A stretch of DNA of 64,000 nt, from contig JAKSMX010000013.1 in assembly GCA_024400305.1 (NCBI GenBank), positions 1-64,000 on the forward strand, written 5' to 3'. Source of the stretch: Bacteroidales bacterium. GTDB taxonomy: Bacteria; Bacteroidota; Bacteroidia; Bacteroidales; F082. Below the pieces are notes generated by a model that made no database searches, had not been told where the DNA came from, and saw only the letters and a list, made by a program, of their open reading frames with translations. Every line of letters begins with the position of its first letter. Positions within the stretch are counted from its first letter, which is position 1. Positions 1-15,774 of this stretch are shown one piece after another. The position numbers and the translations under genes were made by a program.

Positions 1-101
1 TTATCGATATATTTCTTTGATTGTCAGATGTTTAATTTATAGAAGTCCCCTCAACTCATTTCGCTGCCGTTATTTCCGTCTTCAAAAAACGCAACAGGTC
101 T

Positions 102-201
102 GCAAGAGCTTTTGCCTTCTCTTTCTCAAAACGTTTTCGGTAACAAAACGCCTCAACTTCAATTGACGTTCAGCGGTAGAGCATGTGGCAAAAGCACTTG
201 C
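102..201. repeat. Imperfect palindrome E, 100 bp
   Basis: Left arm GCAAGAGCTTTTGCC (102-116) is the reverse complement of right arm GGCAAAAGCACTTGC (187-201) except for one base. The arms share the core GCAAGWGC/GCWCTTGC with the palindromes at 2.8-3.4 kb, so this is a member of the same family on the other side of the AlbA gene. No coding potential is seen in it. Confidence 0.7.
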
Positions 202-343
202 CTGAAGCACCCTGCCAACGTTCACGGCATTGAAAAACACTCACGCTTAAAATGAAAAATCGGAAAATCGGGGAAAACATAACGCTCAACAACAAAAACA
301 CACCACAAATAATTTTTCCCAACCGTCTGTCAAAAAAATTCAC

Positions 344-351
344 TACTTTTG
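344..351 (+). promoter_or_regulatory. Bacteroidota -7 box before the AlbA-type gene
   Basis: TACTTTTG matches TAnnTTTG and lies 23 bp before the ATG at 374. No clear TTTG -33 box is visible at the expected distance, so the call rests on the -7 element and its position. Confidence 0.5.
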
Positions 352-373
352 CAATCCTAACACATTAGGTCAC

Positions 374-1783
374 ATGACAATCGACGACATACGCAAAATT
401 ATCGCTCCCAATGAGCATCGCGAACTTGAACTTAAAAAGACCACTGGCGAGTTGAAAGACGCCATGCATTCGGCTTGCGCATTTCTGAACACCGACGGCG
501 GCTGGCTGATTTTCGGAATTGCTCCGACATCACTCAATATTGTTGGTCAGGAAGTCACCGATAACACCCAGCGTGAGATGGCCAATGCACTGAGCGGATT
601 CGAGCCAGCTGTTAATGTCCGCGTGGAGTATGTCGATGTGCCGGAACATCCCGGCAACAAAGTCATTGCAATAAATTTCGACGGCTGGGTGTGGGGGAAA
701 GAACCATACACATATCATGGCTGTCCATATATCCGAGTTGAAAGCACGACGAAGCAGATGCTGCGTCAGATGTTTGAGGAACGTCTGAAAGCCGCAAAGC
801 CGCACAAGTTCGGATGGGAAAAGCAGGTGGCTGATGACTATACTGTAGATGATTTGGATGAGAATCGTATCAGGGCAGCAGTGAAGTTTGGCGTAGAGAA
901 CGGGCGTATTTCCCCAACAGCACAAGGTGCGACCATCGAAACCATTTTGGAAAAGTTGAATCTCATGAAACAGGGTATGCTGACTAATGCAGCAGTGATG
1001 TTGTTTGCTAAAAACACAAGCGACTATCCTCAATTGTTGATTAGGCTGGCACGTTTCAAAGGAACTGACAAACTTGAATTTATTGACAATAAACGTGTAA
1101 AAGGCAATTTCTTCGATTTGCTCGATGCAAGTATGGAGTTTGCATACAGACATCTGAATATCAGCGGCAAAATTGTTGGATTACACAGAGAAGATAGACT
1201 GGAAATCCCCATTCCTGCACTGAGAGAAGCCCTTGTCAACGCTTTGTGTCACAGAGTTTACGACAATCTTGGTGCAAGTGTTGGTTTTGCCATCTACGAT
1301 GACAGAGTGGAGATAGAAAATCCCGGCCGTTTCCCCGAAGGTCTTACCACAGAAAACATCAAGGAATCACACAAGTCATTACCTTACAACCAACTTATTG
1401 CAGAAGTCTTGTACAAGACATCATGGCTTGAGAGTTGGGGCACAGGAGTTCGGAGAATGTGTGATGAATGCTTGAAATACAAAATTCCAGAGCCATATTA
1501 TGAGATTGGTCAGGGTTTCGTGACTATTATATTCAAAAAGGGTGCTTCTGCAAGCGAAAGTTGCGTAAGTGATTGCAGAAGTCAACTATCTGATAGACAA
1601 TGTAAAATATTGGATTTTATAGATACCAACAATCATATTACTGCAAGTCAAATTGCAGAAGCCTTGCATATAAGCGTCAGAACAGTTTCAACCGAAATAT
1701 CTGTCTTGCGCAGCAATGGATATATTGAAAAGTCGGGCAAAGATAATAAGAGTCCTTGGTTGGTACTGAAAAAAACTGATTAG
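374..1783 (+). CDS. AlbA/Schlafen-type DNA-binding ATPase regulator
   Basis: This 469-residue protein has the layout of the RecG-like/AlbA_2 putative transcriptional regulators. Residues about 10-130 form the AlbA_2 (Schlafen-fold) domain, with the ExxELELKK start and the NTDGGWLIFGI strand. Residues about 270-385 resemble the HATPase_c_4 domain (ALREALVNALCHR, EIENPGRFPEG, SWGTGVRRM). The last 70 residues form a winged helix (ASQIAEALHISVRTVSTEISVL). The family occurs widely in defence and mobile regions, and its targets are mostly unknown. The ATG is preceded by a TACTTTTG box. The gene stands alone, with members of one palindrome family on both sides, which suggests it travels as a unit with them. 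Fold assignment is good; a biological role cannot be given. Confidence 0.85.
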   Translation: MTIDDIRKIIAPNEHRELELKKTTGELKDAMHSACAFLNTDGGWLIFGIAPTSLNIVGQEVTDNTQREMANALSGFEPAVNVRVEYVDVPEHPGNKVIAINFDGWVWGKEPYTYHGCPYIRVESTTKQMLRQMFEERLKAAKPHKFGWEKQVADDYTVDDLDENRIRAAVKFGVENGRISPTAQGATIETILEKLNLMKQGMLTNAAVMLFAKNTSDYPQLLIRLARFKGTDKLEFIDNKRVKGNFFDLLDASMEFAYRHLNISGKIVGLHREDRLEIPIPALREALVNALCHRVYDNLGASVGFAIYDDRVEIENPGRFPEGLTTENIKESHKSLPYNQLIAEVLYKTSWLESWGTGVRRMCDECLKYKIPEPYYEIGQGFVTIIFKKGASASESCVSDCRSQLSDRQCKILDFIDTNNHITASQIAEALHISVRTVSTEISVLRSNGYIEKSGKDNKSPWLVLKKTD

Positions 1784-2003
1784 TTTGAGGAAAGACTCGC
1801 CTGTAAGCAACTTGTCTAAAAACGCTCACTCTTAAAAATGAAATATCGGAAAAAAATAAAAAAGAAATCACTTTAAATCAGAGTGTTATAGTTTTTTATA
1901 AAGGTTAAAAAGGAAGTTTACGTCTCTCAACCAAGCCCCTCGTAGCAAAACGGTCCAGGCGGTGAAGCGGTGTTCCTCACTCTTCCGCTTTGTCGGCGTT
2001 CCA

Positions 2004-2089
2004 TGGCTGGCAAGGGCTTCGCGAGCGGCTGCAAAAAAAATCTCCACCCCTACGGGGTAGTATTTTTTATGCGCCGCCCTTGCCAGCCA
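2004..2089. repeat. Palindrome F with A-tract/T-tract core
   Basis: Perfect 14-bp arms TGGCTGGCAAGGGC (2004-2017) and GCCCTTGCCAGCCA (2076-2089) enclose a core at 2033-2068: eight A, TCTCCACCCC, TAC, GGGGTAGTA, then a T run. The core can itself fold (ACCCC/GGGGT). Outside the arms, GGCGTTCC and GGAACCGCC nearly pair as well. The same core occurs at 3605-3651. Confidence 0.8.
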
Positions 2090-2777
2090 CCGCGCTATGG
2101 CGCTTGGAACCGCCGCCAGCACGCTCCATCGTTCGTCACTCGCGGCTTCCCCTGGCACCCTTGACCCATTTCAGCGGTGCGCTACGCGCATCTTTTCAAA
2201 GGGTGCCAGCCGCCGCTTTAGTTATAGCGCGCCGCCGTGTCGCCTCGCTGGTGGCTGCAGGCAAAGCGGCAATGAAGCTCCCGTCTCTTATGAAGGTTGT
2301 TCGCCGCATTTGCCTTTGCCACCTTACTGCCAGACGCCCTCATGCAGCCCTTGACGCTTACGTCTTCTCTCAACGCACCATGGTAACAAAACGCAGCCGT
2401 TTCCAAACAATGGTTTTCATCGGGCTGCATTCCGGGCTTTTCCTGGCAGAGCGAGGCTCCGCGCGCGGCGCGCGCCACCCGCATTCAGGCACATCTGAAC
2501 ATGACGCTCTCACCCCGCTTGTCGGCTTCTCGTGTTTATTAGGAAGCGCGCGCCATTTTCACCGCAACTCCGTGAAAGGAAAGTGCCCTCGGTGAAAGTC
2601 GGTTTTCAACGTCTTCAGTGACATTACGGTTCACTCTATCACCAAAAGCCCCGACGGAAACGGAAAGTGTACGGTCTTGTCATCAGTTTTCGGTATCAAT
2701 CAGTTCCCAGACTTACGTTTACGTCATTCCCAAAACGCACCTGCTTACATTACGGTTGATTTTTAATGGTTTTCGGT

Positions 2778-2879
2778 GGCAAGTGCCAGACTTCGTTACG
2801 ACTTCATTACGCTGTCCTGCATTCCGCAAAGCTCCATTTCGGACGGCTTCATTCGTCTCCACTGCGTCAGGCACTTGCC
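2778..2879. repeat. Palindrome A, 102 bp
   Basis: Arms GGCAAGTGCC (2778-2787) and GGCACTTGCC (2870-2879) are exact reverse complements. The right arm is followed by CTTGACGGTTTCTCC, a linker type that recurs after other units. Confidence 0.75.
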
Positions 2880-2948
2880 CTTGACGGTTTCTCCTTACTT
2901 GACGGTTGTTTTTTTGAAGTTTCCGTTTCTGTTCAAGGTTCTCGGTGA

Positions 2949-3047
2949 GCAAGAGCCTTCCTGCGTTCCGCCTTCATATCGCCGACGCTGTTCCGCTACG
3001 CTCCACGGCTTACGGCGTATTACGGCTTCACTCCGTCAGGCACTTGC
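2949..3047. repeat. Palindrome B, first copy of a 306-bp direct repeat
   Basis: Arms GCAAGAGCC and GGCACTTGC pair with one mismatch. The whole unit is repeated about 306 bp downstream (3256-3353). The shared right end CGGCTTCACTCCGTCAGG plus CACTTGCAT is identical over 27 bp (3023-3049 and 3329-3355). Confidence 0.75.
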
Positions 3048-3122
3048 ATCAAGCATCTTCTTCTATTGACGGTATTTTACGGCTATCGTGATTTTTAGGT
3101 TTCCGTCTCTCAACAACGCACA

Positions 3123-3195
3123 CTGCAAGACCTTCTGCTTCGAGGGGCTTCACTCCGCAAGCTGCGTTTCGCCTCACTCGCAGAAGCACTTGCAG
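3123..3195. repeat. Palindrome D, 73 bp
   Basis: Arms CTGCAAGACCTTCTGC (3123-3138) and GCAGAAGCACTTGCAG (3180-3195) pair at 14 of 16 positions. The boundary motif TTCCGTCTCTCAACAACGCA ends 3 bp before it. Confidence 0.75.
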
Positions 3196-3255
3196 TTCAA
3201 TCGTGACATGACGGACTTTTTTGAAAGTTCATGCTTCTTTTGATGGTTATCGTTG

Positions 3256-3353
3256 GCAAGAGCCATCCTGCGTTCCGCCTCCATCGCCGCCAGCTGTTAC
3301 GCTGCGCTCCACGGCTGACGACTGATTCCGGCTTCACTCCGTCAGGCACTTGC
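3256..3353. repeat. Palindrome C, second copy of the 306-bp repeat
   Basis: Same layout as the unit at 2949-3047: GCAAGAGCC, CCTGCGTTCCGCC, GCTCCACGGCT and a right arm GGCACTTGC. The interior differs at many positions while the arms stay complementary. Confidence 0.75.
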
Positions 3354-3577
3354 ATTAAGCACCTGCTTCTATAAACGCTTTTTAATTACTTGAAATTTAA
3401 GGTGTTACGTCCCACCCAACCCACCCCCACGAAGTATCTGCTGCCATGAAGTTTCCTAATATCGGAATATCGAAAAAAAAGAATGTTATCGGCAAAACAA
3501 AAAAAAGCAAAAACGCTTCTTCAGGAAAAAAATAACAAATAAAATCATAATGCAAAGTTAGCTCGTAAAGTTTGCCT

Positions 3578-3665
3578 GTCAAGGCCAAGCCCTACGGGTT
3601 TTTGAAAAAAAATCTCCACCCTTCCGCAAGCTACAGGGTAGTATTTTTTTTCAAAAAGCCTTGAC
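3578..3665. repeat. Palindrome G with A-tract/T-tract core
   Basis: Outer arms GTCAAGGC (3578-3585) and GCCTTGAC (3658-3665) pair exactly. Inner arms TTTTTGAAAAAAAA (3599-3612) and TTTTTTTTCAAAAA (3644-3657) also pair exactly. The core TCTCCACCC ... GGGTAGTA is shared with the unit at 2004-2089, although the arms differ in sequence. Confidence 0.8.
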
Positions 3666-3870
3666 TGTCTGCACTTTACTTCGCTGAAAAAGCATTATCA
3701 TTTTATTTTTGCTTTTTCTTTTGGTTTCGTTTCAAAAAAATTTTTGGGGGGCATTCGCGTTGCTGTGGCTTCGCGTCGCAGTCGCTTCGCGTCTCTGTGG
3801 CTTCGCGCCATCGAGGGCTTGCACCTCTGGGTTTGTATAATTTAAGTTTAACAATAAAAAATTGAATATC

Positions 3871-4218
3871 ATGAATTTAGCTATCGTAGGCAGCAGAACC
3901 TTTGACAACTACACTTTGTTGTCTGAATCAATCAAGAACCTTCAGGACTTCGACCTGATTGAAAACATCATCACTGGCGGCGCAAAAGGCGCAGACTCAT
4001 TGGCTGCAAGGTTTGCGGCTGGGCATTCCATTGAGTGCATTGAGCTTCTTCCCGACTGGAGGCACTATGGCAGAGGCGCAGGGCTTGTCCGCAACAAGCA
4101 AATCATCAGCCTGTGTGACCTGTGCATCGCCTTTTGGGACGGTCAGTCCAAAGGCACCAAAGCCGATATCGCTCTTTGCGAGAAGATGGGCAAGCCTTGC
4201 CTGGTGGTCAGCTTCTGA
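3871..4218 (+). CDS. SLOG/DUF2493-family nucleotide-binding protein
   Basis: This small Rossmann-like protein of 116 residues shows the family signatures: GSRTF at the N-terminus, the ITGGAKGADSLAARFA loop, the PDWRHYGRGAGLVRNKQI segment and the C-terminal FWDGQSKGTKADI strand-loop. SLOG proteins bind nucleotides or related ligands. Members in phages and mobile elements have no established reaction, though some act in signalling-type defence. I chose the ATG at 3871; an in-frame TTG sits three codons upstream. An A-rich leader precedes it. The gene is followed directly by three 10-bp repeats and a strong hairpin, so it is probably transcribed alone. Confidence 0.85.
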   Translation: MNLAIVGSRTFDNYTLLSESIKNLQDFDLIENIITGGAKGADSLAARFAAGHSIECIELLPDWRHYGRGAGLVRNKQIISLCDLCIAFWDGQSKGTKADIALCEKMGKPCLVVSF

Positions 4219-4278: not shown

Positions 4279-4526
4279 CACGGTTATGTTGACTAACTTT
4301 GTCACCGAAACACAAAAATTCAACAAATATGGATGCCGTTTTTCATCAGAATTTCACTCCAGCGGCCGACACGCTTTTCAGACGTGTTTTTCGCACATTT
4401 CTAACCCGGATTCCACGCAATACTTCCGATATGTTTTCCCCATACCAACCATATACCAACTATATACCAACTCCAGTGTTCTCCTCCCGGATTCGCCACT
4501 GGCTCAAAACACCAAACAGACACCAA
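4279..4526. other. Leader region of the nuclease gene with an 11-bp repeat
   Basis: A TAACTTTG box at 4294-4301 fits the -7 consensus. TACCAAC occurs three times at 11-bp spacing (4443, 4454, 4465). The reading frame of the nuclease is open upstream to 4299, but that extension is low-complexity and would bury the signal peptide, so I treat it as leader. Confidence 0.45.
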
Positions 4527-5318
4527 ATGTCGCACTCCAAAATGACGAAAATTTCACCCCTAATAGGCATCTTTTTTCTCCTTTTCATATTCGCGGCTTC
4601 GCCGCTTCATGGCCAGACCGTCGGAGCGTTCCCGACCGATATGCTGGAGATACCTGCCGCCATCCAAGACCGATCCGAGACCGTCATCCGACACAAAGGC
4701 TTCACCTTGTCGTATAACTCCGACTGGCTTATTCCAAACTGGGTCGCCTACGAGCTGACAGCTGAAGAAGCCGAAGGAACTGAACCACGCTCGACAACCT
4801 TCACCATCGACCCGGGTTTGGCTTCCTTTCAGTCAGCCACCGCCGCCGACTACACCAACTCCGGATTCGACCGCGGACACATGGCACCTGCCGCAGATAT
4901 GTCATGGAGTGCAGAAGCGATGAGAGAATCATTCTACACCACCAACATCTGCCCACAGAATCCAGCCTTGAACCGTGGAGCATGGAAGTCACTCGAAGAA
5001 AAAGTCCGCCGCATCGCACAGGAATATGGACGTGTTTTTGTCGTCTGTGGCCCAATAGTTGATGACGACCACAAGACAATAGGACAGAATCATGTCACCG
5101 TCCCGAACTATTTCTTCAAAGTCTTGCTGCTGGTTGACGGCTGTGATGTTGCCGCCATCGGCTTTATCTACCCGAATATGAAATGCAATTACCCCACGTC
5201 GTTTTACGCAAAATCGGTTGACTGTGTGGAGGACATCACTGGAATCGACTTCTTTCCAAAGCTACCCGACCACATCGAGAACCGCATCGAAGCAACCTTT
5301 GATTTCTCCGAGTGGTAA
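4527..5318 (+). CDS. Secreted DNA/RNA non-specific endonuclease (NUC1 family)
   Basis: The protein carries the hallmark DRGHMAPAADM motif of beta-beta-alpha-metal nucleases (histidine as general base) and the downstream metal-site segment NICPQNPALNRGAW. The N-terminus from the chosen ATG has a typical signal peptide: Lys, then a hydrophobic stretch ISPLIGIFFLLFIFAAS, then a likely cut near HGQT. A second ATG at 4542 is equally possible. Mature length (about 230 residues) fits the family. It probably degrades nucleic acid outside the cytoplasm without sequence preference. It sits in the mobile region between the SLOG and DUF6266 genes, with no visible immunity gene. A nutritional, antagonistic or release-associated role is therefore open. 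Confidence 0.88.
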   Translation: MSHSKMTKISPLIGIFFLLFIFAASPLHGQTVGAFPTDMLEIPAAIQDRSETVIRHKGFTLSYNSDWLIPNWVAYELTAEEAEGTEPRSTTFTIDPGLASFQSATAADYTNSGFDRGHMAPAADMSWSAEAMRESFYTTNICPQNPALNRGAWKSLEEKVRRIAQEYGRVFVVCGPIVDDDHKTIGQNHVTVPNYFFKVLLLVDGCDVAAIGFIYPNMKCNYPTSFYAKSVDCVEDITGIDFFPKLPDHIENRIEATFDFSEW

Positions 5319-5533: not shown

Positions 5534-6184
5534 ATGGGTACAATCAAACAAGGTATTCTCGGCGGCTTCTCCGGCAAGGTCGGAACCGTCGTCGGCGCGT
5601 CCTGGAAAGGGATCGCCTACATGCGCTCCATGGCGCAGTCAGTCAAGGACAGACGTTCGTCACGTCAGGTGGCGCACCGCGCCAAGTTCGCGATGCTCAT
5701 CGACCTGCTCAAGCAGTTCTCAGACTTCATCGCAATCTCCTTCAAAGAATATGCAAAAAAGATGTCTGAGTTCAACGCGGCTTTCCAGATCAACTACAAC
5801 AACGGCATCATCAGCGGCACCTATCCGAGCCTCACCATTGACCCGTCAAAGATGGTGGTCGCCCGCGGCTCGCTCACTGGTGTCCCTTCGGCGACGGCAG
5901 AAATCAGCGGCGGCATGGCGAAGATTTCCTGGGCCGACAACTCCGGCGAGGGCGACGCATCCGCAACCGACAAGGCTCTCCTTGTGTTCTACAACATCAC
6001 GAAAGACCAGGTCGTGGCATTCGCCAACACGGGTAAGACACGCTCCAACGGCTCGTATTCGACGAGCATCGCCGATGCCTGGGCCGGCGACTCTGTCGCC
6101 TGCCACCTCGCATTCCGGAAGGCCGACGACTCCGCCGTATCTGATTCAGTCTATGCCGGAACGGTAACGCTCCCGTCAGAGTAA
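5534..6184 (+). CDS. DUF6266-family protein, copy 1
   Basis: This 216-residue protein of unknown function starts with a glycine-rich segment, MGTIKQGILGGFSGKVGTVV, that marks the DUF6266 family, followed by a basic stretch (QSVKDRRSSRQVAHRAKF). The rest reads as beta-rich: alternating hydrophobic residues, an Ig-like middle, and the end SDSVYAGTVT. No signal peptide or membrane anchor is visible. The adjacent gene at 6226 is a paralogue. Members are common in Bacteroidales accessory regions, often near lysozyme genes as here. A particle or extracellular structural role is possible but unproven. Confidence 0.8.
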   Translation: MGTIKQGILGGFSGKVGTVVGASWKGIAYMRSMAQSVKDRRSSRQVAHRAKFAMLIDLLKQFSDFIAISFKEYAKKMSEFNAAFQINYNNGIISGTYPSLTIDPSKMVVARGSLTGVPSATAEISGGMAKISWADNSGEGDASATDKALLVFYNITKDQVVAFANTGKTRSNGSYSTSIADAWAGDSVACHLAFRKADDSAVSDSVYAGTVTLPSE

Positions 6185-6225
6185 GTCACTGAAAAGTAAT
6201 CACTAACAACTAAAAACCAGAAATC

Positions 6226-6846
6226 ATGGGAACAATCAAGAAAGGCATCCTCGGAGGTTTCTCCGGCAAGGTTGGGACAGTCGTGGGCGGAAGCTGGAAG
6301 GGCATCGCCTACATGCGCGGACAGGCGCAGTCAATCAAGAACCCACGCAGCGAAAGACAGGTGGCGCAGCGCGAGAAGCTGAAATTCATCGTCAAGGCCC
6401 TCAAGCCGTTCGAGAACATCATCAACCTCGGCTTCAAATACGCCAACATCTCACCGATGAACGCAGCCGTATCGTACAACATCAGAAATGCGGTGGCTGG
6501 CACCAACCCGAGCTTTATGCTCGACTACCAGAAATTCGTGTTCAGCAGCGGCAGACTCCCGTCAGTTGTTGCAGCCGAGGCTTCGGGAGGCTCCAGCGCG
6601 ATAACAATCGACTTCGAGTATGTCACCGGCGCTGACACGGACATCGCCGTGGCGGTCGGCATCAACAAGACGACAAACGAAGTTGTGGTCTGTGAAGACG
6701 CGGAGAACATAAGGGGAAATGCCTCCACGACCCTCACGACCCCCGCGTCATGGAGCGGCGCACAGGTCGCCTGCTACGTCTTCTTCAAGTCAGCCGACGG
6801 CAGGGATGTGTCCGACTCGTTCTACGCCGGGACAGCGACAGCGTAA
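6226..6846 (+). CDS. DUF6266-family protein, copy 2
   Basis: This 206-residue paralogue of the preceding gene starts 41 bp downstream. The first 31 residues differ from copy 1 at only two positions, including the shared ILGGFSGKVGTVVG run. After the basic segment (SIKNPRSERQVAQREKL) identity falls sharply, but the end SDSFYAGTAT is again similar. The pattern points to strong constraint on the N-terminus and diversification of the remainder. A textbook intrinsic terminator follows at 6876-6904, ending this two-gene unit. Function unknown. Confidence 0.8.
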   Translation: MGTIKKGILGGFSGKVGTVVGGSWKGIAYMRGQAQSIKNPRSERQVAQREKLKFIVKALKPFENIINLGFKYANISPMNAAVSYNIRNAVAGTNPSFMLDYQKFVFSSGRLPSVVAAEASGGSSAITIDFEYVTGADTDIAVAVGINKTTNEVVVCEDAENIRGNASTTLTTPASWSGAQVACYVFFKSADGRDVSDSFYAGTATA

Positions 6847-6983: not shown

Positions 6984-7430
6984 ATGAAAACCTCTCAAAA
7001 CGGAATCACGCTAATCAAGTCATTTGAAGGCCTACGCCTGTCAGCGTACCGCTGTCCGGCTGGACACCTCACCATCGGCTACGGTCATACGTCAAACGTC
7101 CATGAAGGTATGACAATAACAGAACAGCAAGCCGAAAAACTCCTGAAGCAGGACATCTATTTCGCCGAACTCGCAGTTGACATGCTCGGCAAACTCACAC
7201 AGAACCAATATGATGCCTTGGTCTCGTTTGTCTTCAACGTCGGAAACAGAGCCTTCTCGTCCTCGCGGCTCCGCCGCTACGTCCTCGCCAATCCGAATGA
7301 CCCTGCCATCCGTCAGGAGTTCCTCCGCTGGATTTACATCACCGTCAAAGGCAAAAAGCAGGTTTCAAAAGGCTTGCAAAACCGCCGTCATGCGGAATCC
7401 AATCTTTATTTCAATACTGAAATCTCCTAA
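6984..7430 (+). CDS. Phage-type lysozyme (GH24)
   Basis: This 148-residue endolysin would cleave the glycan strands of peptidoglycan. Glu15 (in KSFEG), Cys24 and Thr30 (in GHLTIGYGHT) reproduce the E-8-C-5-T spacing of the phage P1 Lyz triad; T4 lysozyme has Asp where this has Cys. The rest follows the family (QNQYDALVSFVFNVGN, RLRRYVLAN, FLRWIYI..GKKQVSKGLQNRR). There is no signal peptide or signal-anchor segment, so a holin or other route would be needed to reach the cell wall. The next two genes encode membrane proteins suited to such a lysis module. The start codon abuts a 9-bp repeat array. Confidence 0.9.
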   Translation: MKTSQNGITLIKSFEGLRLSAYRCPAGHLTIGYGHTSNVHEGMTITEQQAEKLLKQDIYFAELAVDMLGKLTQNQYDALVSFVFNVGNRAFSSSRLRRYVLANPNDPAIRQEFLRWIYITVKGKKQVSKGLQNRRHAESNLYFNTEIS

Positions 7431-8739: not shown

Positions 8740-10554
8740 TTATGTTTTTTCATAGCTGTCGTGTGCCGAATGCTTCAGCCGTCCAGTGCTGCAAAACTTA
8801 CTGATGTACCGCTCAGCTGTCTTTGATGCTATCTTCAACTTCTCCGCCACCGCCAAGTAATCCCTCCTCGAAAAACTCTGCGGCAGGTTGTCCAAGAATG
8901 TCTGCTTGATGTTCGTCAGTCCGTTGGACAACGCCTCACAGTCAGTCAATGGCAGCGAGCCGAACACCTTTGCGGTATGTTCGAGAAGCACCCTGGCCAT
9001 GATTATTGAAGCCTTGAAATCATCGTCGTCGCACTCGATAATGTCAGGGAAACAGCCGTTGTCAACCATCCTCAACGACGACAGAATCATCCCGATCCGA
9101 AACGTTATCAGACCAAGCCGCCGCACCGATGCCACAATGTCAAGCCCGAACAGCTTTGAATATTCCACCTGCACCACCTCGAAGAAATCGTTGAACTGTT
9201 TTTGCTGCAACTCCGTGTAGGTGAATCTTTTGGGTGTTGATTTTTCAAGAATCTTGTAAAGCTCATAGAAGTCGTATCCGAGCTGCTGGAAATAGCCGTC
9301 CAAAGGTTTATCCGATTCGGCGAAAACGTCATTCCATTCAAGCCTCGTGTTCATCCAGTAGAATATGAATCTGCTGAAGAGTCCGTTCTCGGCGTCTGGA
9401 ATCAAGGCGAGAACCTGTTTCGGAGTCCCCGACAGCAAGGCGGAAAGTTTAGGTTTCGACAGTTCCACAAACTCCCTGTCCTTGCGCCTGGTGTAGGAAA
9501 TCATTTCATGGTGAAACGCTTTCCGGAAACCGTCAGAGAAGTTGCCGTAGTCCGACTTGAAAGTGTTGGCCAACGTGTCGCCTTCCGTCTCAAACATCAG
9601 CCCAACGCCGCCGTTGTCGTTCAATACTTGATAGACAGATGTCGCGCTGCTGTTAGCCGGAATAAGCAGGGTTTTCAATGGCGGCTCCGTCGGCTGCTGG
9701 TTGTTTTTCCTGTCAAGCACATATTCATTCAAAAGGTTTTTGTATTCCTCCATTGAGCTGTGGTACTGCTTTTTCAGATAGTTATGCACTGGCATCACCA
9801 GATGTCGGCAGAGCGTCAGCCTGCCTTTCCCCGACGAAGCCTGTGCCGTGATGAAAAGAAACAGGTTCGGGAACACCTCGCGCCGGGCATAGTTGCCATA
9901 CACATTCGGCAGACACGCCGACAGAGCCGTTATTGCACCGAGAACCAACATATCGGCATCTTCAGCCGATGTCGCCACCGCCATCACGTTCCGCAGCATC
10001 TGAGGCAGCAAACCCTCAACATCCTGCGAGAACGTCGGCATCAGCTCGGCAAATTCGTCGGTTGCAACCGACGAATTATCGTTGTCGTCTATTTCGTCGG
10101 TCGTACTCGATGAAATGTCAGAGTTGTCAAAATCCCCAATCTCGCCATCACCCTCTGAAACCCTTGAAACTCCTGAAACTCCTAAATCACCTAAAACTCC
10201 TAATTTCCTACCCACCTCAACACCTGCTTCCTTCGCCCTGTGAAAGAACGTCGCTATCGTCACCCCATGACCCTTGGCTTTAAGGCATCTGTTATATTGA
10301 ACCTCTGTTTCGTTGAACGAATATTCCCGATAGAACCTGCTGATTCTGTGGTAGTATTGCCGCCCGGCTTCGCCGAGCGCGTCAGTCAGGGCGAAGCCGA
10401 GGTCACGCCATTCGGCGTAACCGCCGGTAATATCCACCGAAGCTGCCTCAATGCGTTTGGTCACATCCTCAATGTCTTTCTCAACGCCGTCAACCCTTGA
10501 AACCTCTGAAACCTCCGATTTCCATTCATCGGGGTTGAATTTTTTCTTTGCCAT
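8740..10554 (-). CDS. PriCT/DUF3987 primase-helicase-like protein
   Basis: This 604-residue protein probably acts in replication of the mobile element. Residues about 45-110 match a primase C-terminal (PriCT-2) domain (GGYAEWRDLGFALTDAL, YNRCLKAKG). Residues about 170-500 form the DUF3987 ATPase/helicase-like domain with the Walker-A-like ITAQASSGKGRLT and the LFETEGDTLAN segment. The last 70 residues look like a winged helix (SRRDYLAVAEKLKIASKTAERYI). Between the first two lies a low-complexity, acidic linker partly encoded by the 9-bp repeat. The start ATG is 2 bp after the stop of the upstream primase gene, so translation is likely coupled. In Bacteroidales this protein regularly follows a VirE-N/BT4734 protein, as here. 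Confidence 0.85.
   Translation of the reverse strand: MAKKKFNPDEWKSEVSEVSRVDGVEKDIEDVTKRIEAASVDITGGYAEWRDLGFALTDALGEAGRQYYHRISRFYREYSFNETEVQYNRCLKAKGHGVTIATFFHRAKEAGVEVGRKLGVLGDLGVSGVSRVSEGDGEIGDFDNSDISSSTTDEIDDNDNSSVATDEFAELMPTFSQDVEGLLPQMLRNVMAVATSAEDADMLVLGAITALSACLPNVYGNYARREVFPNLFLFITAQASSGKGRLTLCRHLVMPVHNYLKKQYHSSMEEYKNLLNEYVLDRKNNQQPTEPPLKTLLIPANSSATSVYQVLNDNGGVGLMFETEGDTLANTFKSDYGNFSDGFRKAFHHEMISYTRRKDREFVELSKPKLSALLSGTPKQVLALIPDAENGLFSRFIFYWMNTRLEWNDVFAESDKPLDGYFQQLGYDFYELYKILEKSTPKRFTYTELQQKQFNDFFEVVQVEYSKLFGLDIVASVRRLGLITFRIGMILSSLRMVDNGCFPDIIECDDDDFKASIIMARVLLEHTAKVFGSLPLTDCEALSNGLTNIKQTFLDNLPQSFSRRDYLAVAEKLKIASKTAERYISKFCSTGRLKHSAHDSYEKT
10152..10225. repeat. 9-bp repeat array inside the primase-helicase gene
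   Basis: Units such as CCCTTGAAACT, CCTGAAACT, CCTAAATCA and CCTAAAACT continue the intergenic 9-bp family within the coding region. They encode tripeptide-like repeats (GVL GDL GVS GVS RVS) in the linker. A shorter run at 10493-10517 encodes SEVSEVSRV near the N-terminus. Confidence 0.8.
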
Positions 10555-10556
10555 AA

Positions 10557-11516
10557 TCACAGATATTTCGGGTTGATGAACGCGTCGGGGTCGTATGGCA
10601 GGAAGCAGGCCCTCGACACATCCTTGCCAGACGAATCAATCCCGATGCCGTAAGTCTTCCTGATGTAGCATGAAATGGCGTTGAAATACTCTCCGTGTGG
10701 AGTCTGGCCGATGTCATCAATTGCCACCACCCATTTCAAGCCGTCGCCCGACGGACTTCTGAAAAGCATCTGCGTCTCGAAGTATTCGTCAGCGAGCAGC
10801 GAGTTGAACACGTCTTCAAGGTTCGCGATATGGTCGAAGTCAAGGCACATCAGCCCCGAATGCCTGATGATGTTCCTGTCGCTCCGCGACACGAACACGC
10901 CCGAAAACGTGCAGTAGTCGAAGTTGGCAGCCTTGTAAAGCCGCCGCCGCTTCGCATCGGCTATACTTCTCAGCTTCCACGTCCTTTCCTTGGCGTAATG
11001 ACCTTTTATGTAAGTGTAAATATCAAGCAAAGTCACTGACCTGTAAGGTGTTATGTTGCTTATCGGCGCACGGTAGAAAGAGAACATCGGAATTGGTTTC
11101 ACAGCCGGTACAATCTCACGGCCATCAGAATCCATTTTGCTGTAGAACCCCTTTGAATCAGAGATGTTAAGGTTCAAATCCCTGTCGATGGCAAACATCA
11201 GCTCGTCGCCGTCCAGACCGTAGTATAGTTTTGCGAACACGAACACGTCGCCGTGCGGTATCGTTCCGCTCGAATCCTCATGGACTGCATACTCGTCATA
11301 GATGGCTTCCGGCATCGCGCTCTTCTCGATCCATATCTTCAGGGTTTTCCTTCCGCCGTTGAAGGGGTTCCGGCAGGTGCCGCAGTCACGCCCCGAAAGG
11401 CTGAAGACAACATTGTCATTCGGGAAACACTTGTGGAGGATGTAGGCGTAGATGTTTATGCCATAGTTCGTCTTCGCGAGAATCTGGCTTTTTGAGGGTA
11501 CTGTGGCGTTATTCAT
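10557..11516 (-). CDS. VirE-N/BT4734-type archaeo-eukaryotic primase
   Basis: This 319-residue protein resembles the BT4734/BF3469 family with a VirE N-terminal, AEP-type primase domain. The catalytic-like strand GLMCLDFDHI (acidic pair), the segment LFRSPSGDGLKWVV and the C-terminal GKDVSRACFLPYDP are the family signatures. The N-terminal 110 residues contain two cysteines (GRDCGTCRNPF) and may form a separate nucleic-acid-binding part. Together with the downstream PriCT/DUF3987 protein it would prime replication of the excised element. Its ATG overlaps the stop of the preceding helix-turn-helix gene by 4 bp (ATGA), indicating one operon. Confidence 0.85.
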   Translation of the reverse strand: MNNATVPSKSQILAKTNYGINIYAYILHKCFPNDNVVFSLSGRDCGTCRNPFNGGRKTLKIWIEKSAMPEAIYDEYAVHEDSSGTIPHGDVFVFAKLYYGLDGDELMFAIDRDLNLNISDSKGFYSKMDSDGREIVPAVKPIPMFSFYRAPISNITPYRSVTLLDIYTYIKGHYAKERTWKLRSIADAKRRRLYKAANFDYCTFSGVFVSRSDRNIIRHSGLMCLDFDHIANLEDVFNSLLADEYFETQMLFRSPSGDGLKWVVAIDDIGQTPHGEYFNAISCYIRKTYGIGIDSSGKDVSRACFLPYDPDAFINPKYL

Positions 11517-11833
11517 TTCTTTCCCTCCTTGTAGTTGCGTTTCAGCATCTTGGCGATGTCCTCTGTGCTGTAAACTATTTTCGACCCGAACTTGGTGTAA
11601 GGGATTTTGTGGTTGGAACGCATGTTCTGCAAGGCGTTCCTGCTGATGTTGAACGACAGCATCACGTCCTGGTTGTCAACCCAGCCGCCGATGTCGCTGA
11701 ACTTGTCTTTCGGCTTCTTCGCCATGTCGTCAAGCACCGTCAATTTCTTCATCAGCTCGGCGACGAAAGGGCATGGGCATTCAACCATCTTGCCGTTGTC
11801 ATCCGATGGTTCAAATCTTACTATGTCTTCCAT
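11513..11833 (-). CDS. Small helix-turn-helix protein, excisionase-like, 2
   Basis: This 106-residue protein has a C-terminal MerR/excisionase-type DNA-binding domain (WVDNQDVMLSFNISRNALQNMR, then PYTKFGSKIVYSTEDIAKMLKRN), the form annotated as 'helix-turn-helix domain-containing protein' next to Bacteroidales integrases. It would regulate the element or assist excision. The ATG at 11833 overlaps the upstream stop as TGATG. The paralogous gene directly upstream has the same wing motif (PFSQFGNKIYVLKKDL). Confidence 0.8.
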   Translation of the reverse strand: MEDIVRFEPSDDNGKMVECPCPFVAELMKKLTVLDDMAKKPKDKFSDIGGWVDNQDVMLSFNISRNALQNMRSNHKIPYTKFGSKIVYSTEDIAKMLKRNYKEGKK

Positions 11834-12201
11834 CACTCACTGTCCTCCCCGCCGCCATAGTCTATGTAGCCGATTTTAGCCTTGATGTGGTTCGATTCCA
11901 TGAATGTCTGGAGGTCTTTCTTCAGGACATAAATCTTGTTTCCGAACTGAGAGAAAGGAATGTAGCCGGCCTTCCGCCACGACGACCAGGTCCTTGAACT
12001 GATGTGGAGAGTCTTCATCACCTCTCCAGAGTCAATCCATTCATTGCCGGGCTTCTTTTCTTCCTTCTTCTCTTTCCTTGTGACGAAATCCCTGATGTCG
12101 TCAATCTGTTTTTTGAGGCTGTCCCATTCCTGTTCCGGAATCATGAGCACGGTCATTGCGCCCTGTACCACTGCCTGTCGCTGTCTTTTGCAATCTTCCA
12201 T
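11833..12201 (-). CDS. Small helix-turn-helix protein, excisionase-like, 1
   Basis: A MerR/excisionase-like domain occupies the C-terminal half (WIDSGEVMKTLHISSRTWSSWRK and the wing PFSQFGNKIYVL), with a basic-acidic linker before it (TRKEKKEEKKPG). I chose the ATG at 12201. An in-frame GTG at 12246 would lie about 8 bp from the predicted transcription start. It heads a four-gene operon (two HTH genes, primase, primase-helicase) driven from the promoter at 12261-12288. TGTTCC operator-like sites lie just upstream. It is a plausible repressor or excision factor of the element. Confidence 0.78.
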   Translation of the reverse strand: MEDCKRQRQAVVQGAMTVLMIPEQEWDSLKKQIDDIRDFVTRKEKKEEKKPGNEWIDSGEVMKTLHISSRTWSSWRKAGYIPFSQFGNKIYVLKKDLQTFMESNHIKAKIGYIDYGGGEDSE

Positions 12202-12260
12202 AATTGTAATCGAACAGTGAAAATGAACCGCGACATTGCGGCTCACGTCTGTTCAGGCAG

Positions 12261-12393: not shown

Positions 12394-13464
12394 TCAATGA
12401 TGTTTGTTGGTGACGCTGTTTCTTTTCGACGACTGCAAAGTGACCTCATTCCCGATGTACGGCTCCGCAAGTTCCACCATCTCCTGCACGATGTCCGATG
12501 TGTCGTCGGGCTGTCTCACGCCTAAGAAACACAGTGCGCCAATCTTTTTGGCTTCCGTCAAAGCCGACTTCATAAACCTCGCATTGTCTCTCGTGGCGCA
12601 TTCCTCATCCTTGTCGATGAATCCGAACAGCCGCAAGATGTCGTAAGCATCCCTCTTATCCTGGTTTGATAGTTCAACGTCATTGGGGAAGACAACACCG
12701 TCCATCAGGAAGAACCTGTACATGTCAGGCGTGACCTCGCAATGTGAAGTCACCGTCTCGATGGCGTCCAAAATCTTCTTGCTGTCATACCGGGGTTCAC
12801 ACACCGAGAGCATAATGATGATGGCTGCGTGAAGCCAGATGTTCTTTGGCGGTGCGCCCTTCGTGGCGGTTTCGTTGTATTCCGTTTCAAGTCTCTCGAT
12901 AGTTGATCTGACGCTTTCGATGGTCTTTTCCTGCGATGCTTTTTTCTCATCATGGTTCGGGTATTTCAGATACGCCAAATCGTAGTTCACAGGGTTGAAT
13001 CTGATGTCAAAACTTGGGTCAACTTCAGTGGCGTACTTGTGCTTCAGGAAGTTGAACACGCCCGAAAGCAAATCTTCGCTTGTCAGAGTCAGTTTTCTTT
13101 TTTCACTGTAGCTGGCTTTTTTGTTCACGATGTCGATTTCCTGTGAGAGTTTAATCGCTGATTCAATACTGACAAGCAGCGATTCGGCGATCTGTCTTTT
13201 CTGGAAAATCCTGTATCTCGTCACGAATGACAAGTCAGTCTTAATGTCGTGGACGGAAGTCCGTCTCAGCAGGTTGAGCGCGGTCCAGAGGTATTCCGAA
13301 TAATCCTCGAAGCGTGTCTTCACGACCATCCTGTCGAATGCCGTCCGCGTCACGTTGTTGAAGTGTATCGTTTCCGGCTCGCTGATTTTTGTGTAGGCGA
13401 GTAGTATCATGGTGTCAAATTTTAGGTTAATATTTTGTTTCAAACAATAGGACATCGGCGGCAT
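12394..13464 (-). CDS. Protein of unknown function cotranscribed with the integrase
   Basis: I do not recognise a family. The 356-residue product is largely helical by eye, with charged amphipathic stretches (KTIESVRSTIERLETEYNE) and a hydrophobic helix (IWLHAAIIIMLSVC) too polar around it to be a certain membrane span. The start overlaps the integrase stop as TAATG, so translation is likely coupled to the integrase. That suggests a role in integration, excision or maintenance. A later ATG at 13410 is possible. No catalytic motif is evident. Confidence 0.7.
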   Translation of the reverse strand: MPPMSYCLKQNINLKFDTMILLAYTKISEPETIHFNNVTRTAFDRMVVKTRFEDYSEYLWTALNLLRRTSVHDIKTDLSFVTRYRIFQKRQIAESLLVSIESAIKLSQEIDIVNKKASYSEKRKLTLTSEDLLSGVFNFLKHKYATEVDPSFDIRFNPVNYDLAYLKYPNHDEKKASQEKTIESVRSTIERLETEYNETATKGAPPKNIWLHAAIIIMLSVCEPRYDSKKILDAIETVTSHCEVTPDMYRFFLMDGVVFPNDVELSNQDKRDAYDILRLFGFIDKDEECATRDNARFMKSALTEAKKIGALCFLGVRQPDDTSDIVQEMVELAEPYIGNEVTLQSSKRNSVTNKHH

Positions 13465-14888
13465 TAGATGCCGTCAATGTTCTCGCTTGCGATTCTGAGT
13501 CTGATTTCCTTGAACATGGTTTTTGCAAACTCTTCGTTGTTTGTGTCGCGGATAAGGTCGCTGATCTTGTTAATCCAGAGTTCGATGCCGCCGACTTTCT
13601 TCTTGAAAACGTTTTTCAGAGCCTCGTCTGTTGCGTTGGTGTCGAAGTTGCCCATATAGCCTTCGGTTATTTTCAGGGAGGAGTGGGCGAGCATTTTCTG
13701 TATTGCGCTGTTGTCAGTGCCTTCGTCTTTGGCTATCTTGGCGAAAGAGTGTCGGCTGATGTGCATTGAGACCCTTTTGTCTATTCCGGCGAGTTCCGCA
13801 ATTTTGTTCAGTTCCTTGTTGATGAGCGCGTTTTTCGCTGAAATGTCTTTGAAAAGCTCTTGTTTGGTTGCCACATTCATTGAATCGTAGTCCATTTCGG
13901 TCACACATTTTGCGTAAGGTTTTGATGGGTCGAGCAGAGGGAAGATGTAATCTGAGCCTTTGAATTTCTCCGGCCTGTAATAGTCGAGGATTTTCAATGC
14001 AGGTTCAACGAGCACCAAATCCCTCACCTTGTGGTTCTTTCCCATCTGATAGTTGAGGCGTTCCCCCACGATGTTGCGCCACCGCATCTGAATCAGGTCA
14101 CCTGCTCTAATTCCGGCGCAGTAAAAGCTGAACAGGAAGTAGTTTCGGCAGTGCCAGAGCAGCGAACCCTCTTTGAGTTCGAGAGCCTTGATGCTTTCAA
14201 TCTCGTCAGCTGTCAGTTTGTCTTTCACGGTCTTCACGCCTTTGATTTGGAACACCATGAAAGGGTTCTTTTCCGGAGCCATCTTTCCTTCCTTGATGGC
14301 TTTGTTGATGTTTGAGCGGAACTCGTTAAGCACCTCCTGCACGGTATTAGGGTGGATTCGTTTTTCTGGGTGTCGTTCATTCGGCAGTTTATCGAGATAA
14401 GCCTTGAAGTTGGTGATATATTCGTAGTCGATTTCACTGAAGAGCAGGTCTTTGCCTTTCTGGTATTTTTTGAGTTTGTTAAGGAAATTGCTGTGTTTTT
14501 TCCAGTTTCTTATGCCGCCGCTGTCGAGTATGCTTTGAATCTTCGCCGCCGCAAACTCGATGAACGATTCGGAAACATTCTTTGCCTTGATAGCGTCCGC
14601 GACCTTTCCCGATGAAACGGTGGTTTCTTTGTCAAGTTCAAGATACTTGTTTCGGCTCTCTTCAATCATTCTTGCGAGTTCGTCGTTCCATTTCTTTGAA
14701 TAGGGGAGACTTTTCTTGATCCAGTTGTTGTTGACGCATTTTGAATTGAAGTCGGAGCGTTTGTCAACTTCGTATGGAGTCTTGATCTTCTTTCTTACAC
14801 CGCCGACTGTGATGCAGATGTAGATAGTCCATTTGTTGTTTCTTGTAGGTCTGTTGTTGAGTTCCAGTCTGAAAGAGTGTGCTTCCAT
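13464..14888 (-). CDS. Tyrosine recombinase (phage-type integrase)
   Basis: This 474-residue site-specific recombinase has the full catalytic set: Arg in CAGIRAGDLIQM, Lys in GKNHKVRD, His-x-x-Arg in MHISRHSFAKIA, His in MLAHSSLKITEGY, and the nucleophile Tyr in EGYMGNF. An Arm-type N-terminal domain (about 1-90) and a SAM-like core-binding domain (about 105-210) precede the catalytic part, as in Bacteroidales element integrases. It would insert the element at a tRNA 3' end. A truncated tRNA 3' end lies 220 bp upstream of its start. The leader contains a TATCTTTG box (minus strand, 14951-14958) and a small hairpin, GCTGAT/ATCAGC. Confidence 0.95.
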   Translation of the reverse strand: MEAHSFRLELNNRPTRNNKWTIYICITVGGVRKKIKTPYEVDKRSDFNSKCVNNNWIKKSLPYSKKWNDELARMIEESRNKYLELDKETTVSSGKVADAIKAKNVSESFIEFAAAKIQSILDSGGIRNWKKHSNFLNKLKKYQKGKDLLFSEIDYEYITNFKAYLDKLPNERHPEKRIHPNTVQEVLNEFRSNINKAIKEGKMAPEKNPFMVFQIKGVKTVKDKLTADEIESIKALELKEGSLLWHCRNYFLFSFYCAGIRAGDLIQMRWRNIVGERLNYQMGKNHKVRDLVLVEPALKILDYYRPEKFKGSDYIFPLLDPSKPYAKCVTEMDYDSMNVATKQELFKDISAKNALINKELNKIAELAGIDKRVSMHISRHSFAKIAKDEGTDNSAIQKMLAHSSLKITEGYMGNFDTNATDEALKNVFKKKVGGIELWINKISDLIRDTNNEEFAKTMFKEIRLRIASENIDGI

Positions 14889-15189: not shown

Positions 15190-15702
15190 TATCGAATGGC
15201 AAATTACCGGCAAAATTCAAAATTTTCTCATTTTTTGTATCTAATTTTTTGTATCTCATTTTCTTTCAGTGTATTACGCCGTTTTTCAGTGGTTTTTAAT
15301 ACTCTCTGATGCCTTCAAAATACCAATATAAGTTCACCCTGTTTTCACATATTTCAACGAGGACGTTACAACAAATTTACTCGTTTTTTACAAAATGGCG
15401 AAAAATTTCCACGCCAAATTGCCAAAGAAACACGAATTGCCAAAATGGAGATTTGGCAATTTGGCAATATGAAATGCGTAATTTTTCCGTGAATTTTACA
15501 AAATCAGCGTGAAAATTTGCGGCTTCAGTCGCTTATAATGCTATCAAAAATTCACTTCTTGTCAAATTTACAGAAAATTTTTGGAAAAGAGGGGTGAAAA
15601 AGGCGGAAATAGAGTGAAAAGTATTTGCACGTAATTTGCACGTGGTTTAAAAAATCAAAAAGGTAACTTATTGAATAATAATAAATTACCTCTAAATGTT
15701 AG
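15190..15702. other. Gene-free stretch before tRNA-Arg
   Basis: No gene is supported. The sequence is AT-rich with words such as CAAATTGCCAAAGAAACACG and GGCAATTTGGCAATATG that repeat a GGCAA/TTGCC theme. It contains the TTTGCACGTAATTTGCACGT double repeat at 15624-15643. It may be a remnant of an older integration at the tRNA. Confidence 0.5.
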
Positions 15703-15774
15703 TACCCCAGCTGGGAATCGAACCCAAATCTAAAGTTTAGGAAACTTCCATTCTATCCGTTGAACTACCGGGGC
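15703..15774 (-). tRNA. tRNA-Arg (anticodon CCT)
   Basis: The minus strand folds into a complete cloverleaf: acceptor GCCCCGG/CTGGGGT, D stem GTTC/GAAT, anticodon stem GAAGT/ACTTT with loop TTCCTAA (anticodon CCT, reading AGG), T stem TTGGG/CCCAG with loop TTCGATT, and discriminator A. CCA is not encoded. A TATCTTTG -7 box lies 13 bp upstream (15788-15795, minus strand). Confidence 0.93.

Follow-up and report, generated by a model that had tools for sequence, protein, structure and literature searches.

The DNA analysed here, 64,000 nucleotides (nt) of contig JAKSMX010000013.1 of a Bacteroidales bacterium (assembly GCA_024400305.1; this whole stretch is called the window), carries near its left end an array of long inverted repeats, placed around an AlbA/Schlafen-type gene (SLFN_AlbA_2, HATPase_c_4 and HTH domains; 374..1783, plus strand) and in the roughly 2 kb to its right (1784-3870), where no gene was recognized and where none of the nine open reading frames scanned (63-201 amino acids; those present in the array have 60-201) matched Pfam at E <= 0.01. 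The array is followed, all on the plus strand, by a SLOG gene (YAcAr, PF10686; 3871..4218), a DNA/RNA non-specific endonuclease gene (4299..5318), two DUF6266 genes (5534..6846) and a phage-type lysozyme gene (6984..7430). Our main subject is the pair of hairpins at the opposite ends of the array, denoted HEAD and TAIL, and the relatives of these hairpins in other Bacteroidota, for which we propose a role as promoter and priming sites in single-stranded DNA.

A first-pass annotation had described seven palindromes as a single set. All seven inverted repeats were located at the places given there, but they belong to two families: the repeats at 2004 and 3578 share an inner core of their own, ATCTCCACC..GGTAGTATT, and constitute HEAD (2004..2089, minus strand, with the core at 2033-2064) and TAIL, respectively, whereas the other five share GCAAG..CTTGC arms. 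The TAIL palindrome, first delimited as 3578-3665, is real but longer, extending over 3525-3718 (about 190 nt; 3525 and 3718 are the outermost paired bases of the DNA fold), with the minus strand as the proposed functional strand and with a tip core, AAAAAAAATCTCCACCC..GGGTAGTATT (3605..3645, minus strand), that is found phylum-wide. TAIL is 83-84% conserved in two relatives, G088 and G076.

The HEAD/TAIL core pattern was found in at least 117 genome loci; all locus-level and instance-level counts given here rest on the matches listed, in loci of at most 8 kb. Among these, 110 are Bacteroidota by title, with genera placed in part by what we take to be their accepted affiliation, and the remaining seven are metagenome bins labelled otherwise (L146, L151, L162, L172, L173, L180 and L215), perhaps binning errors or close phyla. 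A single match was obtained in viral contigs. Within the family to which the window belongs, the core is present in 17 of 173 genomes and the reversed core pattern in none (0/173); the genome of origin contains two exact copies. Further copies in related genomes, which the first-pass annotation had made decisive for its proposal, are thus present for both families of hairpins: phylum-wide for this core and, for a covariance model of the GCAAG family (R1, built from 11 copies including those of G076 and G088), in 5 of 99 genus genomes, the genome of origin included. In six other loci (L110, L139, L160, L172, L182 and L210), HEAD is followed by TAIL, with the cores 363-364 nt apart.

BLAST searches extended the range of carriers. 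The Algoriphagus copy led to Bacteroides, Parabacteroides, Phocaeicola and Marivirga plasmids, the Marivirga copy to 2.7-kb plasmids of Empedobacter and Elizabethkingia, and the Bacteroides copy to 11 records, among them three Bacteroides/Phocaeicola plasmids with a diverged tip, in which the hairpin is retained and the box CAAANNTA is located at the same place. Carriers of the hairpin include integrative and conjugative elements and a Rep_3 plasmid. On the 2.7-kb plasmids, RepL and MobV alone were recognized, so that the reader of the hairpin is probably a host protein. Two records deserve a separate remark: L232 (MT836306.1), filed as 'Bacteriophage sp.', has two near-identical TAIL-like hairpins at 9913 and 11084, about 1.2 kb apart, and is perhaps not a phage but a mobile element, and L227 (NZ_OY725750.1), filed as a plasmid, has chromosomal-looking genes beside the end of a CTnDOT-like element, with the hairpin just inside the element.

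To analyze the arms beyond the core, the 60 nt outside each arm were taken for 117 usable instances, of which 22 without a shared 10-mer were kept (14 TAIL, 5 HEAD and 3 unclassified). The left and right flanks of the same locus pair with a mean energy of -19.3 kcal/mol, compared to -8.9 kcal/mol when flanks are swapped between loci and -8.5 kcal/mol (standard deviation 2.5) at random places in the same loci; in 18 of the 22 loci, the pairing falls below the 5th percentile of that locus's own swapped flanks, and -15 kcal/mol is reached by 73% of the flank pairs versus 1.8% of the random places. This pairing is covariation at the scale of the whole arm. Because the outer arms of the HEAD/TAIL family differ in sequence and yet pair within each locus, folding is under selection, as the first-pass annotation had suggested. 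Computed with DNA energies, pairing is stronger on the minus strand in 18 of the 22 flank pairs and on the plus strand in 3 (p = 0.0014), and the minus strand is therefore the likelier one to fold; RNA folding is likewise better on the minus strand in 131 of the 134 listed instances, a count to which the fixed core contributes.

On the minus strand, one arm of TAIL contains a TTGACA element (3577..3582) at -33/-35 and, where the predicted stem opens into an internal loop, a -7 element, TAACTTTG (3553..3560), in the arrangement TTG-N19-TAACTTTG, that is, with 19 nt between the two. A TTG box at about -33 is a known companion of the -7 element. The consensus of the latter, TAnnTTTG, is described as the sigma-A -7 box in Flavobacterium (PMC9723704). 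Its plus-strand form, CAAANNTA, occurs within 130 nt to the left of the core in 79 of the 134 listed instances, compared to 8.8% at random positions (TAIL, 57/76; HEAD, 16/40; unclassified, 6/18). The motif is one-sided: the opposite orientation was found in the left flank in 2/134 instances, and an ordinary rightward (plus-strand) promoter box in the first 130 nt to the right of the core in 3/134. Among non-redundant instances, 35 of 60 have the -7 box, compared to a mean of 3.9 and a maximum of 12 in composition-preserving shuffles. The spacing between the box and the arm clusters at 20 to 23, an arm at 10-30 nt being found for 39/76 TAIL and 16/40 HEAD instances, and the mean pairing of the box is 0.32, compared to 0.67 and 0.50 for its neighbours in the stem. 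An unpaired bubble at the -10/-7 box is a feature of single-strand promoters of the Frpo type, but the low pairing of the -7 box here cannot be told apart from an effect of AT content.

The genes beside the hairpin are mostly co-oriented with it. DUF6943-type genes (a BLAST cluster of which one member was checked against Pfam) are located downstream of the hairpin in 43 loci, 43/43 on the plus strand, and DUF6266-type genes, 48 in 38 loci, are 48/48 on the plus strand. The tandem DUF6266 genes of the window (5534-6846), as well as those at L058:3920-6562, have a fixed N-terminus, MGTIKQGILGGFSGKVG, and are located behind the hairpin. In Bacteroides elements, PcfK or PcfK/PcfJ genes lie downstream, and in two of the three plasmids with a diverged tip, SSB genes follow 6-11 kb downstream in the same direction. 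Overall, the nearest gene to the right is on the plus strand in 87 of 107 loci.

Where a relaxase gene belonging to the carrier itself was found, it is co-oriented with the hairpin (10/10 records or loci, about five kinds of elements: p214_V8GG_COL1, BFG-481, BFG-201, pFTRAC01, pES183-2, the Elizabethkingia plasmid and four Chryseobacterium loci); among the 118 listed loci, seven mobilization-related queries matched in these four from Chryseobacterium only. Relaxase genes are reported to enter the recipient last, typically (PMC11541004). Under this rule, given the co-orientation, the minus strand, which is also the one that folds better, would be transferred. In p214_V8GG_COL1, a nested insertion inside the tra region (L229 36421-42371) also carries an abortive-infection-type gene and two integrases.

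From these observations, we propose, with a probability of roughly 0.6, that TAIL and its Bacteroidota relatives are single-stranded-DNA promoter and priming sites of the Frpo/sso type, fitted to the Bacteroidota sigma factor. During single-stranded transfer or replication of the element, the minus strand would fold into a hairpin of about 200 nt, the 3' arm of which would present the TTG (-33) and TAnnTTTG (-7) boxes as a duplex, and host RNA polymerase would load there and use the 5' arm as template. Because the polymerase must run to the 5' end of the minus strand, transcription would proceed rightward, in the plus sense, into the genes beside the hairpin: in the window, SLOG, the first gene that the folded strand would transcribe, then the endonuclease, DUF6266 and lysozyme genes; in other carriers, DUF6943, PcfK/PcfJ and, at a greater distance, SSB. 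This RNA might also prime second-strand synthesis, and after conversion to duplex DNA, the promoter would face away from the operon. The suggestion of the first-pass annotation that the palindromes act as single-stranded DNA is supported by this evidence.

Several observations weigh against this proposal. The 134 instances are not mutually independent, and neither are the swapped flank pairs, for which reason no weight is given to the exact p of the swap test. An exact TAnnTTTG is missing from the left flank in 25 of the 60 non-redundant loci, as it is at the HEAD of the window, where no -7 element was recognized, and the box is paired about as much as AT-rich octamers elsewhere in those flanks (0.37, p = 0.22). 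The nearest gene to the left is also on the plus strand, in 76 of 104 loci, so that co-orientation is in part general, and a further 18 loci have a minus-strand gene family downstream; the same 76/104 implies that the duplex promoter, pointing left, would seldom be a normal promoter for the left-hand gene. Opposite-strand genes lie between the hairpin and SSB in both SSB plasmids. The transferred strand is deduced from the relaxase rule and not from a mapped origin of transfer (oriT), no relaxase was recognized in the window's element, and the BfmA/BtgA and DUF5712 mobilization genes of the nested insertion in p214_V8GG_COL1 (36421-37888) face against the hairpin; we set this insertion aside as another element. 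On pFTRAC01, the hairpin is near the presumed oriT, so that only a short RNA could be made there from a linear strand.

Work on single-strand promoters has dealt with F-like plasmids, and searches for them have used boxes of the Escherichia coli type (PMC9849209, PMC11541004). Frpo of the F plasmid is described as a leading-region sequence that, as a single strand, forms a stem-loop containing -10 and -35 boxes; early genes of the leading region are expressed from it, with ssb behind Frpo2, until second-strand synthesis switches it off (PMC9849209). Frpo and the ssi sites of ColIb-P9 are long one-strand hairpins with boxes in the stem and with ssb among the leading-region genes behind them (PMC9849209, PMC11541004), an arrangement to which the Bacteroidota hairpin comes close in its logic. 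The Bacteroidota hairpin differs in having TTG/TAnnTTTG boxes, a phylum-wide tip core and other downstream genes. As for the features expected of an Frpo-type promoter, we found a long stable hairpin selected for pairing (in the 22 loci), host-sigma boxes that lie within it, in the 3' arm of the proposed functional strand (exact -7 box in 35/60, one-sided), and downstream genes templated by the transferred strand, if the minus strand is the one transferred. In rolling-circle plasmids (the single-strand origin, sso) and in M13 (the complementary-strand origin), a hairpin in the single strand presents a promoter to host RNA polymerase, as is proposed here; compared to these, by description only, the Bacteroidota hairpin is also found on integrative and conjugative elements and on a Rep_3 plasmid.

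A survey of leading regions published in 2024 searched with five known Frpo/ssi sequences and with TTGACA/TATAAT boxes, and the string 'bacteroid' is absent from its main text (PMC11541004). No paper on single-strand promoters of Bacteroidota, and none under the names DUF6266 or DUF6943, was found in the open-access literature (for the former, preprints excluded). We see even chances that Bacteroidota have a phylum-wide class of single-stranded-DNA promoters of their own, with a strongly conserved tip core and the TTG/TAnnTTTG boxes that belong to the unusual sigma factor of the phylum, a class that switches on establishment genes before second-strand synthesis. Such a class would be common to conjugative transposons, integrative elements and 2.7-kb plasmids; it would explain how the first genes of common gut conjugative elements are expressed in a new cell, and it would point to uncharacterized establishment genes (DUF6943, DUF6266, DUF6926 and PcfK/J-linked genes). 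It would also suggest a basis for host range, in that dependence on the phylum's own polymerase would help confine such elements to Bacteroidota, and would provide a short signature for locating element ends in Bacteroidota genomes.

The leftward direction of the TTG/TAnnTTTG motif can be read in another way, namely, as an ordinary double-strand promoter in TAIL that transcribes a structured noncoding RNA in the direction of HEAD; this RNA, with a length of about 0.36 kb in Algoriphagus and of 1.6 kb in the window, would regulate the element. The better folding of the minus strand as RNA, with the contribution of the fixed core, and the terminator-like T-run behind the stem in the core fit this explanation. 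However, a transcript starting at the left base of the hairpin would exclude TAIL itself, the pairing of which is conserved; the distance from HEAD to TAIL is not constant, with two exact cores in only 16 of the 118 listed loci (of at most 8 kb each); and an ordinary promoter needs no surrounding palindrome of 200 nt. We consider such an RNA unlikely.

The single-strand promoter that we propose shares its promoter-in-hairpin logic with RNA-polymerase-dependent origins, and the hairpin might accordingly be an initiation site for second-strand synthesis only (sso/ssi type), with the facing genes incidental. There is little to transcribe on the 2.7-kb RepL/MobV plasmids or near the presumed oriT of pFTRAC01, as would be expected of such a site, but the position of all DUF6943-type and DUF6266-type genes downstream, in the reading direction of the folded strand, speaks against this explanation, to which we give a low probability.

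Far less probable are folded single-strand recombination sites, comparable to the attC sites of integrons, or transposon ends recognized as hairpins, with the GCAAG units forming the array. In integron attC sites, the arms of an imperfect palindrome are conserved and its interior varies, and the GCAAG units likewise have constant arms and variable interiors, with more units in the window than in G076 and G088; a tyrosine-recombinase-like sequence is found just left of HEAD in three genus genomes. The nine open reading frames without a Pfam match leave no recognized gene, and hence no recognized cassette, between the units, no recombinase was recognized on the 2.7-kb carriers, the flanks pair but are not repeated ends, and no R/L box pattern was apparent by eye (integron integrases were not searched for); no positive evidence was found for the recombination-site role that the first-pass annotation had offered. 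Bidirectional transcription terminators or insulators at element edges, which the GC stem between an A-run and a T-run in the core might suggest, are about as improbable, given that terminators need about 30 nt, whereas the pairing here spans about 200 nt and holds a one-sided promoter motif.

The GCAAG family consists, in the window, of four longer hairpins at 102..201, 2779..2878 (first noted as 2778-2879), 2949..3047 and 3256..3353 and a shorter one at 3123..3195, all on the minus strand. The arm GCAAGWGCC, attributed to five units, is exact in three (2779, 2949 and 3256), whereas unit 102 has GCAAGAGCT and unit 3123 has GCAAGACCT. A boundary motif reported at five sites was recovered within 3 mismatches at 74, 1918 and 3101 (0.21 expected by chance) but not at 2358 and 2719. 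The pattern GCAAGNGC-N58..88-GCNCTTGC has six sites in the 2.86-Mb genome, at 102, 2010, 2779, 2949 and 3256 of the window and on contig C14, and its reversed control has none. In total, the genome contains seven GCAAG units, that is, the five of the window and one each on C14 and C11, the latter two being further copies of unit 102, which lies beside the AlbA gene. The exact 25-mer of this unit was found at no locus in the genome contigs and viral contigs searched.

Outside the genome of origin, the family was found in this genus only. Model R1 recovered two copies absent from its building set, in G151 (E = 5 × 10-5) and in G081 (E = 8.5 × 10-4), the latter about 1.2 kb from a HEAD core-like sequence. 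Across the 173 family genomes, the GCAAG arm pattern matches in 50, the genome of origin included; reading the matched letters identified GCAAG copies in G076 and G088 and HEAD copies in G079, G097, G115 and G167, and the rest are taken as chance. Unit 3123 has counterparts in G076 and G088, and units 2949 and 3256 both align to one single unit in each of these genomes, consistent with a local duplication. It had been proposed that arms stay complementary and interiors vary; the arms are nearly invariant (two-sided change in 1 of 8 predicted pairs) and so cannot covary, but the interiors, which differ between subfamilies, do show better pairing inside a unit than between units (p = 0.0004 to 0.005 for 6 representatives). 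The GCAAG units are located in a stretch without recognized genes or, for unit 102, beside the AlbA gene; no -7 element was seen beside them, and they are probably accessory single-strand hairpins. When units 2949 and 3256 are folded as minus strands, a regular GNA/GNA internal-loop pattern is noticeable by eye, a possible DNA mini-hairpin motif on which nothing is built. By eye, there are also more long inverted repeats at 2250-2430, between HEAD and the GCAAG units, with a weak model match at 2278-2359 (E = 0.0024).

RNA folding against dinucleotide-preserving shuffles gave, for the plus and minus strands, respectively, z = -5.8 and -6.7 at 2004, -4.3 and -4.3 at 3578, -3.8 and -2.9 at 3123, -3.7 and -3.6 at 2778, -2.2 and -2.6 at 102, -1.9 and -2.4 at 2949, and +0.15 and -1.9 at 3256. 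When the array was scanned with DNA energies, z < -3 was reached in 3 of 29 scan windows, all at HEAD or TAIL; as these alone stand out, we do not retain the view that the array as a whole is one uniform set of structured RNAs. Compensatory changes between the window and G076/G088 were counted in 7-10 cells (control mean 1.7-1.8, maximum 7-9), which adds little. The impression that no described family fits was borne out in Rfam 15, where at gathering scores none of the units has a match and a tRNA is the only match in the window; at E <= 5, two matches were obtained in 1780-3880 (E = 1.7 and 3.6, with scores of 12 and 18 versus gathering scores of 95 and 55). Repetitive extragenic palindromic elements and miniature inverted-repeat transposable elements are short palindromic repeats with local duplication, which the array resembles in both respects; unlike these, the hairpins are few in the genome of origin, with two exact HEAD/TAIL cores and seven GCAAG units.

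No match to the window region was found in the phage and plasmid collections. The window appears to sit in an integrated mobile element beside a tRNA-Arg(CCT) gene (15702..15774, minus strand), the probable integration site, with the palindromes near one element end. Also on the minus strand are the element's DUF3987/PriCT_2, BT4734-like_N (primase-type) and HTH_17 genes (8740..12246) and a tyrosine integrase gene (13464..14888); the 356-amino-acid protein encoded at 12394-13464 has no family match. Positions 1-51 are the end of an insertion sequence, identical to C11:2162-2212 of the same genome, which adjoins a transposase-like sequence; the contig thus begins within an insertion sequence, and the left part of the element is unseen.

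In G076 and G088, the hairpin region is retained at 83-86% identity, and the genes to its left differ. The slot occupied in the window by the AlbA gene contains in G088 (L053:450-2543) an Argonaute-like gene (a weak model match, below the curated cut-off) and AlbA, and in G076 (L052:15-2417) an AIPR-like gene (MzaE model, E = 5 × 10-108, below the curated cut-off) and a different AlbA-like gene. Because the slot genes change and the hairpin region stays, the AlbA gene appears to lie in a variable, defence-like slot and not to be the cargo of a repeat or cassette, as had been proposed; the slot is possibly a site where defence genes are swapped. The tyrosine-recombinase-like sequences directly left of HEAD in genus genomes are located at L058:60-1000, L054 783-941 and L055 1273-1431.

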